Shown here piece after piece: positions 24,445 to 28,903 of a DNA stretch of 64,000 nt. Location of the stretch: the NCBI GenBank assembly GCA_012839095.1, contig DUOA01000024.1, positions 1 through 64,000 of the forward strand, in the 5' to 3' direction. The DNA is from Clostridiales bacterium (GTDB lineage Bacteria > Bacillota > Clostridia > Caldicoprobacterales > DTU083). A program made the position numbers and the translations under genes. Each line of letters begins with the position of its first letter. The first letter of the stretch is position 1. The notes below the pieces were generated by a model that was not told where the DNA came from, ran no database searches, and saw only the letters and a list, made by a program, of their open reading frames with translations.

Positions 24445-25230
24445 ATGAATGCAAAGATCAGAGTAGTGGTAATCGATGACAACCCCCATATCCGTGAAAT
24501 CATGTCTTCCTATATAGGCAGGGAAGAGGATATGGAGGTTGCAGGCACAGCCGGCGACGGAAGCAGGGGATTGGAGCTGATAAAGGCTGTCCGACCCGAT
24601 GTTGTATTGTTGGATATGATTATGCCGCATACGGACGGCCTCAGCATACTGGAGCACTTCAGCAGCAGCTCTGATTACATGCCTTCAATTATCTGCCTGT
24701 CAGCGGTAGGGCAGGAGGAGCTAATCCGAAGGGCCATCAACCTGGGGGCAAAATACTATATGGTCAAACCCTTCGATTTTGAGCTGATATTAAACCGCAT
24801 ACGGGAATTGTCCGGTTCTCCCTCACCGGTCATCGGCAGGCCTGTTCCTTCCGCATCAAATAATAACAAGAGCAGGCAAATCAACCTGGAAGAAAGAATC
24901 ACCAATATCTTTCTTACCATTGGAATTCCTGCTCATATCAAAGGCTATCATTTCCTCAGGGAAGCCATTAAGATGGTAGTGGAGGACAATGATATAATCA
25001 ACCGGATAACAAAGGAGCTCTATCCCGGCATCTCCAGAAAATTCAATACCACGCCCAGCAAGGTGGAACGGGCAATCCGGCACTCCATCGATGTAGCCTG
25101 GAGCCGGGGCAAGGTTGAAAATATCAATCAATTGTTTGGGTATGTTGTATACGATAAAAACGACAAGCCTACCAACGGTGAGTTTATTGCCCTGGTGGCT
25201 GACAAGCTTTCCATGGAACTCACCGCCTGA
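24445..25230 (+). CDS. spo0A: Stage 0 sporulation response regulator Spo0A
   Basis: 261-residue master regulator of sporulation. The receiver domain (1-~125) has the acidic pocket Asp11/Asp12, phospho-acceptor Asp57 ([10 protein letters not shown]) and [10 protein letters not shown]. The Spo0A_C DNA-binding domain (~150-261) contains [16 protein letters not shown] and [18 protein letters not shown], the recognition helix region. GAGGAGGAAAGG precedes ATG 24445. In Bacillus and many Clostridia spo0A follows spoIVB; here it follows rsmA and an unknown gene, and no spoIVB is in the window. A Spo0A box upstream suggests it controls itself. Confidence 0.97.
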
Positions 25231-25248: not shown

Positions 25249-26400
25249 TTAGACTTCCCTTAAGGCCCCATCCGCCTCCTTCAGCTTATGAATAATATCT
25301 ATGCTCTGAGGGCAGGCTGTTTCACATTCTCCGCATTCAATGCACCTGGAGGCGTCTTTCTCATCCGATATTAACTTGTTGTATCGGTTCAGATGTCCGT
25401 CGGTCATGCCGAATATGGAAGAGTCGTTCCAGATACTAAATATACCCGGTATGGACACTCCATTGGGACAGGGCATGCAGTATTCACAGGATGTACAATC
25501 CACTTTGGTTTTGCTCTCATACCGTTCCTTTACCTTTCTAACCAAATCCAGCTCATCCCGGCTCAGGCAATTGGGAAGGGCTTTACCAAAAATGCGAATA
25601 TTGTCCTGAAGCTGCTCCATAGTGCTGACACCGCTCAGGATTACCTTTATCTCGGGGAAGTTGTACAGCCAGCGAAAAGCCCACTCCACCGGAGAACGGC
25701 TGCTGCCGGCCTGATTCCACAGTTCCATAATGTCAGGCGGAGCAGATGCCAGCTTTCCTCCTCTCAAAGGCTCCATGACAACCACCGGGATTCCCTTGGA
25801 GGCTGCATATTTAAGCCCCTTTACCCCGGCCTGATAGTTATCATCCAGAATATTAAGCTGTATCTGACACATTTTCCAATCGTAGGAATCGATTATATCC
25901 CTGAAAACCGGAAACTCGTCATGGAAGGAAAAGCCGGGATAACGAATACGGCCGTCTGCTGCTGTCTTATCCAGCCAGTCCAGCACACCCATGTCCCGGA
26001 CCTTCTCCCAGGAATTCTTGTTCAGTGAATGAAGCAGATAAAAATCGACATAGTCTGTCTCCAGCCGGGCAAGCTGCTCATTAAGCAGACGATCAAAATC
26101 TTCATAAGACTTGGCAAGCCAGACCGGCAGCTTGGTTGCCAGCCTGATCTTCTCCCTGTAGCCGTCCTTTATGGCTTTGCCCACCAGACGCTCACTGTTG
26201 CCGCCGTGATATCCATAGGCGGTGTCCAGATAGTTGACCCCATTGTCTATTCCGTGGCGAATCATTCGGATGGCTTCGGATTCATCAATCTTCTCATAGC
26301 TGGTACTGCCATCCGGGTTTCGCAGGAGCGGCAGACGCATGCAGCCGATTCCGAAAACCGAGCATTCAATACCCAGCTTTTCAAATTTGCGATATTGCAT
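25249..26400 (-). CDS. Aldo/keto reductase with C-terminal [4Fe-4S] domain
   Basis: 383-residue protein on the minus strand. The barrel (1-~285) has GIGCMRLPLL, the catalytic-region DTAYGYHGGNSE and DFYLLHSLN. The C-terminal ~90 residues carry cysteine sets CTSCEYCMPCP and CIECGECETACP, so two Fe-S clusters are likely. This is the clostridial class of Fe-S aldo/keto reductase of unknown substrate. A GGGGGG ribosome site lies 5' of the start. It converges on spo0A with only 18 bases between the stop codons and no clear terminator. Confidence 0.9.
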   Translation of the reverse strand: MQYRKFEKLGIECSVFGIGCMRLPLLRNPDGSTSYEKIDESEAIRMIRHGIDNGVNYLDTAYGYHGGNSERLVGKAIKDGYREKIRLATKLPVWLAKSYEDFDRLLNEQLARLETDYVDFYLLHSLNKNSWEKVRDMGVLDWLDKTAADGRIRYPGFSFHDEFPVFRDIIDSYDWKMCQIQLNILDDNYQAGVKGLKYAASKGIPVVVMEPLRGGKLASAPPDIMELWNQAGSSRSPVEWAFRWLYNFPEIKVILSGVSTMEQLQDNIRIFGKALPNCLSRDELDLVRKVKERYESKTKVDCTSCEYCMPCPNGVSIPGIFSIWNDSSIFGMTDGHLNRYNKLISDEKDASRCIECGECETACPQSIDIIHKLKEADGALREV

Positions 26401-26520
26401 CTTACGTCCCCCCTGTTGTTTTTTTATACTTTGTTCTTATTATAGCACTCTTTCTATATTATAGGAAAGATGCACGCCATATTATATCAAAAATGTAAAT
26501 ATAAAGCTTTATTTTTTGTC

Positions 26521-26627
26521 TGTGGAAAACATCTTTTTTGTCCACAAAGCAGGAATCCTTTAATTCCAATAACTTGGGGATAAGCCTGTGGAAACTGTGG
26601 ATAACTTTTCTGCCAGCCTGTGGGTAA
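26521..26627. promoter_or_regulatory. Cluster of DnaA-box-like sequences
   Basis: Six 9-mers related to the DnaA box TTATCCACA fall within 107 bases: TGTGGAAAA (26521, 8/9), TTGTCCACA (26538, 8/9, opposite orientation), TGGGGATAA (26575, 8/9), TGTGGAAAC (26587, 7/9), TGTGGATAA (26596, exact) and TGTGGGTAA (26619, 8/9). The flank 26476-26520 is very AT-rich. The cluster lies in the divergent gap between the aldo/keto reductase and the mutase-like gene. DnaA binding is likely; its role (titration, gene control or replication) is open. Confidence 0.75.
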
Positions 26628-26697
26628 GTTCATCTGTCTGGCCGATATTACACAGAATTTCCTCTCCGGCATACAATGTAGAGAGGAGGTGACGGGC

Positions 26698-28071
26698 TTG
26701 ATTACATTCGGTGAAAGCGGATGGTTTGGAGTTATCAGCGAAGAGATTGGATTTGAAACCATCGGCATCGTTGCCCAGGCGGTTGCAGACTGTCTGTCTG
26801 AGCGGACTGATTCTGCCACAGTGGTGCTGGGCTATGATACCCGTTTTCTTTCCAGGGAATATGCTTGGTGTGTGCAAAAGGTGCTGACAGCCAACCGCAT
26901 AAGGCTCTTCATGCACAAAAAGCCTGTTCCCACACCCTTTCTGAGTATGTCCGTCCGGCTTTATCAGGCTGATCTGGGGATCATGATAACCGGTGAAGAT
27001 CGTCCTGCCCGTTACTCGGGGATGACCTTCCGGCTGCCGTCAGGATGTCCTGTGACGCGGGACTGGATGGACAGCCTATTTCACCATCTGTACAGGAGAT
27101 ATCCCAGAAGTTCAGAAGACAGCAGGCATTTGCTGCGTTATATAGATGTTTTTCCCGAATATGCAGCCCGGCTGCAGGAGTCAGTGGATATTGAACTGAT
27201 TCGAAGCAACAAACCCAATATTGCCAGTGACAGCTTTTTTGGGAGCGTGGGAACCTATATGCAGGAAATGACCAGGAAACTGGGATTAAGCGGGATTCAT
27301 ATCCGAACAAGACCCAATCCCGGCTTCATGGACAGTGTTCCCCAGCCCAATGACAGAAACATGAACCCGCTTTCAAAACTGGTAATGAATAAGAAGGGGG
27401 ATATGGGCATATTTTTCAATGGAGACGGCAGCATCATGGGGGCAGTATCCGCTCTCGGCCGCAGGCTGCCCCATTCATGGGTCTGCGCGGCAATGCTGGA
27501 GGAATGGCTGACTGCCAATGGCCGGGATTTTGATATTTATACCGAGATATTTACACCCGCTGTTATTCATTCTCTGATCTCCCGTCATGGATTGGAGGCA
27601 TTGCCCCTCTGCCGGCTTAATGAAGAAAACAGGCCTTTAGAAAGGGCTGTAATCTGTGATCGGCATTGTCTCATCCTTGGTTCCTTTTTGCCGGATCGGG
27701 ACGCTGTTTTTCAGGGGATGCTGCTGCTGCAGGCTCTGTGCAGGCACAAGCTGAATTGGAAGCAGTTTATGGAACATATGGAAGCACTGGCCGGGGACAG
27801 GCATTTTGAGCAGAAGGTTGTTCACCTGGATGCCCAGGTCTGGGAAAATAAGCAAGGGGATATTCCGGAAAAGGCGGAAAAACTGAGTCCGGAAAAAATG
27901 GTGGAAGTTACAGAGGCGGGAGATGACCGAAAACTTGTTTTTGAAGACGGCAGCTGGCTGGGCTTCAGCTACAATGGTAAGGAAAGCAGCCTGTTCATAT
28001 ATTGTGATGCGGTATCCCGTCAATGGTCGGATAAATTTCTCTCGGAACTGATTGCCTGGTTTATGGAATAG
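26698..28071 (+). CDS. Phosphohexomutase-like protein lacking catalytic loops
   Basis: 457-residue protein of the phosphoglucomutase/phosphomannomutase superfamily by its N-terminus: ITFGESGWFGVISEEIGFE, VVLGYDTRFLS and PTPFLSMSVRLYQADLGIMIT match the family. The active phosphoserine loop, normally TASHNP, reads TGEDRP (98-103), so the catalytic Ser is gone. The metal-binding loop, normally DGDxDR, reads NGDGSIMG (241-248). It is therefore unlikely to be a mutase. The start is TTG 26698, 5 bases after AGGAGGTGA; the frame upstream reaches into the DnaA-box cluster without a ribosome site. A regulatory or binding role is possible. Confidence 0.82.
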   Translation: MITFGESGWFGVISEEIGFETIGIVAQAVADCLSERTDSATVVLGYDTRFLSREYAWCVQKVLTANRIRLFMHKKPVPTPFLSMSVRLYQADLGIMITGEDRPARYSGMTFRLPSGCPVTRDWMDSLFHHLYRRYPRSSEDSRHLLRYIDVFPEYAARLQESVDIELIRSNKPNIASDSFFGSVGTYMQEMTRKLGLSGIHIRTRPNPGFMDSVPQPNDRNMNPLSKLVMNKKGDMGIFFNGDGSIMGAVSALGRRLPHSWVCAAMLEEWLTANGRDFDIYTEIFTPAVIHSLISRHGLEALPLCRLNEENRPLERAVICDRHCLILGSFLPDRDAVFQGMLLLQALCRHKLNWKQFMEHMEALAGDRHFEQKVVHLDAQVWENKQGDIPEKAEKLSPEKMVEVTEAGDDRKLVFEDGSWLGFSYNGKESSLFIYCDAVSRQWSDKFLSELIAWFME

Positions 28072-28235
28072 ATATTTTTCACCCATTTGGGAAGGATTTT
28101 TAATATTTACATCGAATACAATCTCTTGATTTGCTATTTGGCATTATACATGGTTTTATTTTACCGGATAGGGTGTATAATATTAATCAAAAATTGCCTG
28201 ATAAAACGTGGCAGTGATTTCCGGAGGGATACAGT

Positions 28236-28583
28236 ATGGCATATAAAAAATGTCCGCGTTGCAATCTGAATTACATCCAGGATATTGATGTCCTCTGCAA
28301 GATTTGTCTGGAAGAAGTCGGGAAGGCTCTTAGGAACAATGATGAGGAGGAAGAATATGATATTTGCCCCGAATGCGGGGAGCATATTATAAAGGCCGGA
28401 GAAGAGATGTGCTACCAATGCTCATTGGAACTCGGCAAGGAGGAAGTGGATCCTGACGCGGACAAGGAGGAAGAATGGGATACAATAACCGATGAAAATG
28501 AGGATGAAATATTCGATGATGAGGAAGAATCGGATGGGCTGACCGTGATCGATTTGGATGAAGAAACAGAGGAAGAGGAATAA
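28236..28583 (+). CDS. Small acidic zinc-ribbon protein
   Basis: 115-residue protein of unknown function. It begins MAYKKCPRCNLNYI, followed by CKIC, CPEC and CYQC: four CxxC knuckles, enough for two zinc ribbons within residues 6-67. The remaining ~45 residues are almost all Asp/Glu and probably disordered. GGAGGG is ~7 bases before ATG 28236. It is 53 bases before veg with no terminator between, so the two are probably co-transcribed. Confidence 0.8.
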   Translation: MAYKKCPRCNLNYIQDIDVLCKICLEEVGKALRNNDEEEEYDICPECGEHIIKAGEEMCYQCSLELGKEEVDPDADKEEEWDTITDENEDEIFDDEEESDGLTVIDLDEETEEEE

Positions 28584-28636
28584 TAAAGCAGAGGCCGGAC
28601 AAACTAATCCCAACTATGATAATGGGATGTGATTCC

Positions 28637-28903
28637 GTGATCGATGCAGAAGCTCTGGCCAGAATCAGGAAGGCAGTGGAATCCAATGTAGGTCAGAAGG
28701 TGAGACTGAAGGCCAACCGGGGGAGGAGAAAAACCTATATAAAGGAAGGTGTGATTTCCGATACCTACCTTAATCTCTTTACTGTCCGGGTGGACATTGA
28801 TACCAGGTGTGTTCAGACTTTGTCCTACACCTATTCGGATATCCTCACATCCAATGTTGAGCTGGTTAAATGCAGTGACAACGAAAAAATATGTACGGTA
28901 TAA
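28637..28903 (+). CDS. veg: Veg protein
   Basis: 88-residue Veg-family protein: VGQKVRLKANRGRRKTYIKEG and LSYTYSDILTSNVEL match Bacillus Veg (LTLKANGGRRKT, VSYSYADILTETVEL). Veg stimulates biofilm gene expression in Bacillus and is highly expressed there. I chose GTG 28637, ~8 bases after GGGATGTG; ATG 28616 and 28622 are in frame but have no ribosome site. Terminator downstream. Confidence 0.9.
   Translation: MIDAEALARIRKAVESNVGQKVRLKANRGRRKTYIKEGVISDTYLNLFTVRVDIDTRCVQTLSYTYSDILTSNVELVKCSDNEKICTV

Follow-up and report, generated by a model that had tools for sequence, protein, structure and literature searches.

What does a dense group of DnaA boxes do in an intergenic region away from dnaA? 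The question is raised by positions 26521-26627 of the window (the whole stretch of 64,000 nucleotides that was analysed), 107 bp on contig C110. Non-origin DnaA-box clusters have been studied best in Bacillus subtilis, and a constraint on their arrangement is not obvious there. The array described here shows a near-letter-perfect geometry over four families, together with natural losses (genomes G007 and G004) and a rearrangement (G015), so that action by position, through a neighbouring gene or as an assembled unit becomes testable by comparison and in vitro.

Structure of the DnaA-box array

DnaA boxes were scored against TTATNCACA as the reference 9-mer. The count given in an earlier note on this DNA, one exact box and four with one mismatch in 107 bases, was confirmed, and the sixth box has two mismatches. 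The same is true of the surroundings as described there, a divergent intergenic region in a window that contains neither dnaA nor dnaN. Box 1 (26521-26529, minus strand) reads TTTTCCACA, or TGTGGAAAA on the plus strand, has one mismatch and was aligned across 26 genomes. Box 2 (TTGTCCACA, 26538-26546, plus strand) also has one mismatch and lies in opposed orientation 17 bp from box 1. The other four boxes are on the minus strand. Box 3 (TTATCCCCA (TGGGGATAA), 26575-26583) is a non-consensus box with one mismatch and has the same letters in 25 of the 26 genomes. Box 4 (GTTTCCACA, 26587-26595) has two mismatches, is weak and variable, reads TGTGGATAA in 6 of the 26 genomes and abuts box 5 (26596-26604), an exact TTATCCACA that is identical in 22 of the 26. 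Box 6 (TTACCCACA, 26619-26627), with one mismatch, is decayed in this genome and is an exact TTATCCACA in 11 of the 26. The layout therefore combines four boxes in the same direction (3-6, two of them abutting) with an opposed pair (1 and 2). The 45-base AT-rich stretch beside the boxes, to which the earlier note had drawn attention, was found to the left of them (26476-26520) with 80% AT in this genome, but relatives have 51-67% AT there. It does not belong to what is conserved in the array, which also rules it out as an unwinding element.

The earlier note had further asked whether similar clusters occur at chance frequency. This was not the case: among 60 first-order Markov 64-kb windows, none contained 107 bp with at least five boxes (2 contained four), the 297-bp intergenic region was shuffled 20,000 times without ever reaching five, and arbitrary stretches from the same genome, 380 kb in total, contain no place with five boxes and one with four. 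About 509 kb of stretches, together with pattern searches, served to estimate the background density in this genome. Three further clusters, near a murG-like gene and gyrA, at dnaD-dnaI and on contig C49, came from stretches that had been chosen for holding exact boxes. The genome thus has a few such clusters, well above chance, and the array is one of them.

Conservation across the order

The comparison comprised 30 genomes of one clostridial order in four families, whose numbers follow the search tool. Relatives with a name are Clostridiales/Bacillota MAGs, and the genome set includes metagenome assemblies. The six-box array is present in 26 of the 30 genomes and in all four families, every time 3' of a Spo0A-like gene. 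Neighbourhoods of orthologues revealed it with the same box order 5' of the mutase-like gene in nine of ten related genomes, and by a strict pattern it was found once per genome in 9 of 13 family-1 genomes. Families 2, 3 and 4 have the array in the same syntenic position, with the spo0A-like gene on one side and a zinc-ribbon/veg/SPOCS-LysM/ispE block on the other; exceptions on the side of this block are G015 and contigs that end early. Family 2 seemed to lack the array when 1.5 kb 3' of the spo0A-like gene were considered, a result that was rejected when longer stretches placed it 2 kb away. In the family-2 genome G013, an ArsR gene and a CoA-disulfide-reductase-like gene (named by eye) lie between the spo0A-like gene and the array.

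In the 26-row alignment, between-family identity is 0.82 in the box columns versus 0.36 in the spacers. The distance between boxes 1 and 2 is 17-19 bp, between boxes 2 and 3 34-38 bp and between boxes 3 and 4 always 12 bp. Boxes 3 and 5 are separated by 21 bp in 23 genomes and by 20 bp in three, boxes 5 and 6 by 23 bp in 22 of the 26; a good box 6 is missing from part of family 2 and from some members of family 4. A search of 391 genomes from the class with the core pattern gave matches in this order only, and the reversed control gave zero matches, while a looser geometry pattern gave one stray match outside the order (G354). The identity of the box columns and the spacing show that the array is maintained by selection, and it is probably ancient within this clostridial order. 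In the complete genome G007 the array is lost and the pattern matches nowhere else, and in G004 it is missing at this place, so that it is not essential. The apparent absence in G018 and G011 is due to assembly gaps and not to loss.

Neighbouring genes

The 5' side of the array is always occupied by a Spo0A-like gene, which lies at 24445-25230 on the plus strand of the window and matches TIGR02875 well above the cut-off. Across the order there are two Spo0A proteins per genome (here window 24445-25230 and L205 3996-4808); the gene for the canonical one follows spoIVB, and that for the other, a paralogue, lies between ksgA and veg. In G000 the second gene follows argR-recN-spoIVB on contig C79. 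By this placement it is the canonical gene, and the gene in the window is an order-wide paralogue. The distance of 1.3 kb between the cluster and the end of spo0A stated in the earlier note is correct (1.29 kb), but it refers to this paralogue and not to the canonical argR-recN-spoIVB-spo0A locus. An exact Spo0A box was not found within 250 bp of any of the 26 arrays. A link between replication and sporulation is possible, because the array sits by the Spo0A paralogue throughout the order. The missing Spo0A boxes speak against it, as does G015, where no promoter of a downstream gene adjoins the array.

The array is flanked in the window by an aldo/keto reductase (AKR)-ferredoxin gene (25249-26400, minus strand), which is absent at this place in several relatives, and by the mutase-like gene (26698-28071, plus strand) with a likely TTG start at 26698 and the ribosome-binding site GAGAGGAGGTG. 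Promoter-like elements, TTACAC ... CATACAAT, are located between the array and the mutase-like gene (26648-26677, plus strand) and are kept in most family-1 relatives. The mutase-like gene is a family-1-specific insertion between the array and the zinc-ribbon gene and does not occur in families 2-4. Its product is phosphomutase-like and restricted to one family; the TASHNP-type loop of the catalytic serine is replaced, with TGE.RPA in nearly all of 11 orthologues, and the protein is predicted to be a conserved pseudoenzyme. Both genes are later insertions beside the array. The earlier note had placed the array over the promoters of these two genes, which is not borne out: other families keep the array but have neither gene, in G004 the mutase-like gene occurs with no array at this place, and the AKR gene is missing in several relatives. 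On these grounds an operator of the mutase-like gene, suggested by family 1 alone, was rejected as the general reading of the array, and so was a companion of the AKR gene.

Further downstream follow the zinc-ribbon protein gene (28236-28583, plus strand) and veg (28616-28903, plus strand). A conserved AAGGATTTTT...CGAATA, which resembles a sigma-H promoter, occurs before the zinc-ribbon gene, at about 28090-28125 in the window and in the gap between array and zinc-ribbon gene in L149, L151, L153, L157, L158 and L161-L163. A sigma-E/K-like nature of GCATACAAT is not established.

Possible functions of the array

The array most probably represents a non-origin DnaA-box cluster of the B. subtilis kind (probability roughly 0.55), which would bind DnaA cooperatively and mainly buffer free DnaA, with possible effects on local transcription. 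This assignment draws on the sequence and on analogy. Boxes 3-6 and the opposed pair 1-2, at their near-fixed spacing, could form a platform for cooperative DnaA binding. DnaA held there would lower the free pool and dampen premature initiation, as the B. subtilis clusters do collectively. The next gene may be modulated as well, since bound DnaA would sit beside the downstream promoter, in this genome the promoter of the mutase-like gene. The array is not an origin, but since it is kept at the same spot with near-fixed spacing across four families, it probably controls the amount of free DnaA. That the array stays while its neighbours change speaks for a role of the DNA as such rather than for the control of a single gene. 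Fixed inner geometry, a varying promoter distance and the lack of an explanatory neighbour would be expected of a DNA element that acts as an assembled DnaA complex. The oriC of this genome uses the same TTATCCACA boxes as the array.

In B. subtilis, a single DnaA-box cluster has little effect alone. Loss of six clusters leads to early initiation, which is partly relieved by one cluster (PMC5295017). DnaA of B. subtilis occupies eight regions in vivo; one lies between the convergent genes gcp and ydiF, and at other bound regions DnaA acts as activator (sda) or repressor (PMC4447404). The clusters of this species (ywlC, yqeG-sda, yydA, ywcI-vpr, gcp-ydiF, trmE-jag) resemble the array in that several boxes lie within about 100-300 bp off oriC and few clusters occur per genome; some are situated at promoters and one between convergent genes. 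In contrast to the array, none of the eight regions is found at spo0A or veg (PMC4447404), and the near-fixed box order and spacing over four families and the invariant non-consensus box set the array apart. The comparison with Bacillus-type clusters outside oriC that the earlier note had drawn is therefore retained for a box cluster away from the origin, but without its framing by the mutase-like and AKR promoters.

Against titration it has to be considered that the array is followed, in almost every genome, by a start codon in the same direction at a distance of roughly 55-230 bp (G015 is the single exception), a placement that also fits a regulatory site. The array could be chiefly a DnaA-responsive site for the transcript just downstream, ancestrally zinc-ribbon-veg and in family 1 the mutase-like gene, and would tie a gene of the transition/sporulation region to the replication state, much as DnaA controls sda in B. 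subtilis. The zinc-ribbon start lies 107-229 bp beyond the end of the array in families 2 and 3 and in most of family 4; in family 1 the array is close 5' of the mutase-like start, and promoter-like elements follow it in family 1 and in families 2-3. The motif AAGGATTTTT...GCGAATA, found 3' of the array in families 2 and 3, resembles a sigma-H promoter, a reading that is not established. DnaA is known to act as a transcription factor (PMC8203912, PMC4447404), and the sda promoter likewise has DnaA boxes beside a promoter in a sporulating Firmicute. However, the gene 3' of the array is not annotated as Sda and differs between families, and the distance from the array to the promoter-like elements varies by tens of bp whereas the inner box spacing is fixed within 1-4 bp. 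In G015 the array is enclosed by the spo0A-like gene and a convergent gene, both with their 3' ends towards it, and adjoins no downstream-gene promoter, and G004 keeps the mutase-like gene in spite of lacking the array. We regard a chiefly regulatory role as possible, albeit somewhat unlikely.

It is doubtful, though conceivable, that the array is a fixed-geometry DnaA control element dedicated to this one order. The invariant weak box would then make assembly dependent on the level or nucleotide state of DnaA, and the position beside the Spo0A paralogue would allow replication state and sporulation decision to be read at one locus.

One feature alone, the invariant weak box 3, is left unexplained by simple titration. 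A passive sink would have no need for TTATCCCCA to be conserved as such in 25 of 26 genomes; this conservation, together with the rigid spacing and orientation, would suit a DARS- or datA-like element, in which the fixed geometry and this box set the nucleotide state of DnaA beyond mere binding. The E. coli loci datA, DARS1 and DARS2 are, like the array, non-origin DnaA-box loci of defined arrangement. However, datA and DARS2 require IHF and DARS2 also Fis, and in B. subtilis the control is aimed at DnaA oligomerisation rather than ATP hydrolysis (PMC5295017). The location of the E. coli loci is also unrelated to that of the array. A function of this kind is improbable for the array.

Binding of another regulator with a TGTGGATAA-like site instead of DnaA would be in line with the invariantly non-consensus box 3 but is very unlikely, as the same 9-mers form the oriC of this genome and the cluster upstream of dnaD-dnaI, and as its DnaA carries the box-recognition stretch GRDHTTVIHACDKI.

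An origin function of the array, whether by itself or within a bipartite origin, is hardly tenable despite the dense boxes and the AT-rich flank in this genome, since the oriC lies at dnaA-dnaN on another contig (C134), the flank is not conserved, and G007 has no array and no match to the pattern elsewhere. On C134, the rpmH-side genes diverge from dnaA-dnaN-recF-gyrB-gyrA, the dnaA-dnaN gap contains TGTGGATAA, TTATCCACA and, by reading, the DnaA-trio-like run TAGTAGTAGTAATAGCAGTAG, and the GC skew changes sign. At the array, reading of the sequence gave no DnaA-trio. The GC skew analysis proposed in the earlier note gave no sign switch at the array: the skew of the window is that of a leading strand throughout, positive on either side of the array, and the only dips fall on the AKR gene, which is on the minus strand, and on a short minus-strand stretch near 41-43 kb. 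The array as oriC is ruled out by the dnaA locus elsewhere, the skew and the missing trio. For clostridial origins, a dnaA-dnaN layout with a trio is expected (PMC7561715). The bipartite oriC of Firmicutes (dnaA promoter and dnaA-dnaN) has the same 9-mers as the array, which differs from it by the absence of dnaA/dnaN, of a noted trio and of a skew switch.

In G007, which has no array, the locus lies 279 kb from dnaA in 3.13 Mb and is thus moderately origin-proximal. Positions 5776-62114 of the window join two gene blocks, holB-rsmI-metG-tatD-yabE-ksgA-veg-ispE-purR-glmU-prs-pth and rho-prfA-upp-murA-spoIID-mbl. In B. subtilis these blocks flank oriC on either side.

Further DnaA-box clusters

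A second conserved DnaA-box cluster was observed beside the murG-like gene, close to gyrA (L033 7552-7660 on G000:C134; G007:C1:1007244-1007284; L170-L173, L175 and L176). It is present in many family-1 genomes; in two genomes its distance from dnaA is about 9-13 kb. Directly 5' of the dnaD-dnaI operon, a cluster is found in at least four family-1 genomes (L035 9812-9920 on G000:C157; L177 4228-4268; L179; L126). Another dense cluster is flanked by the genes of a CxxC zinc protein and of an amino-acid transporter (L036 8386-8469 on G000:C49).
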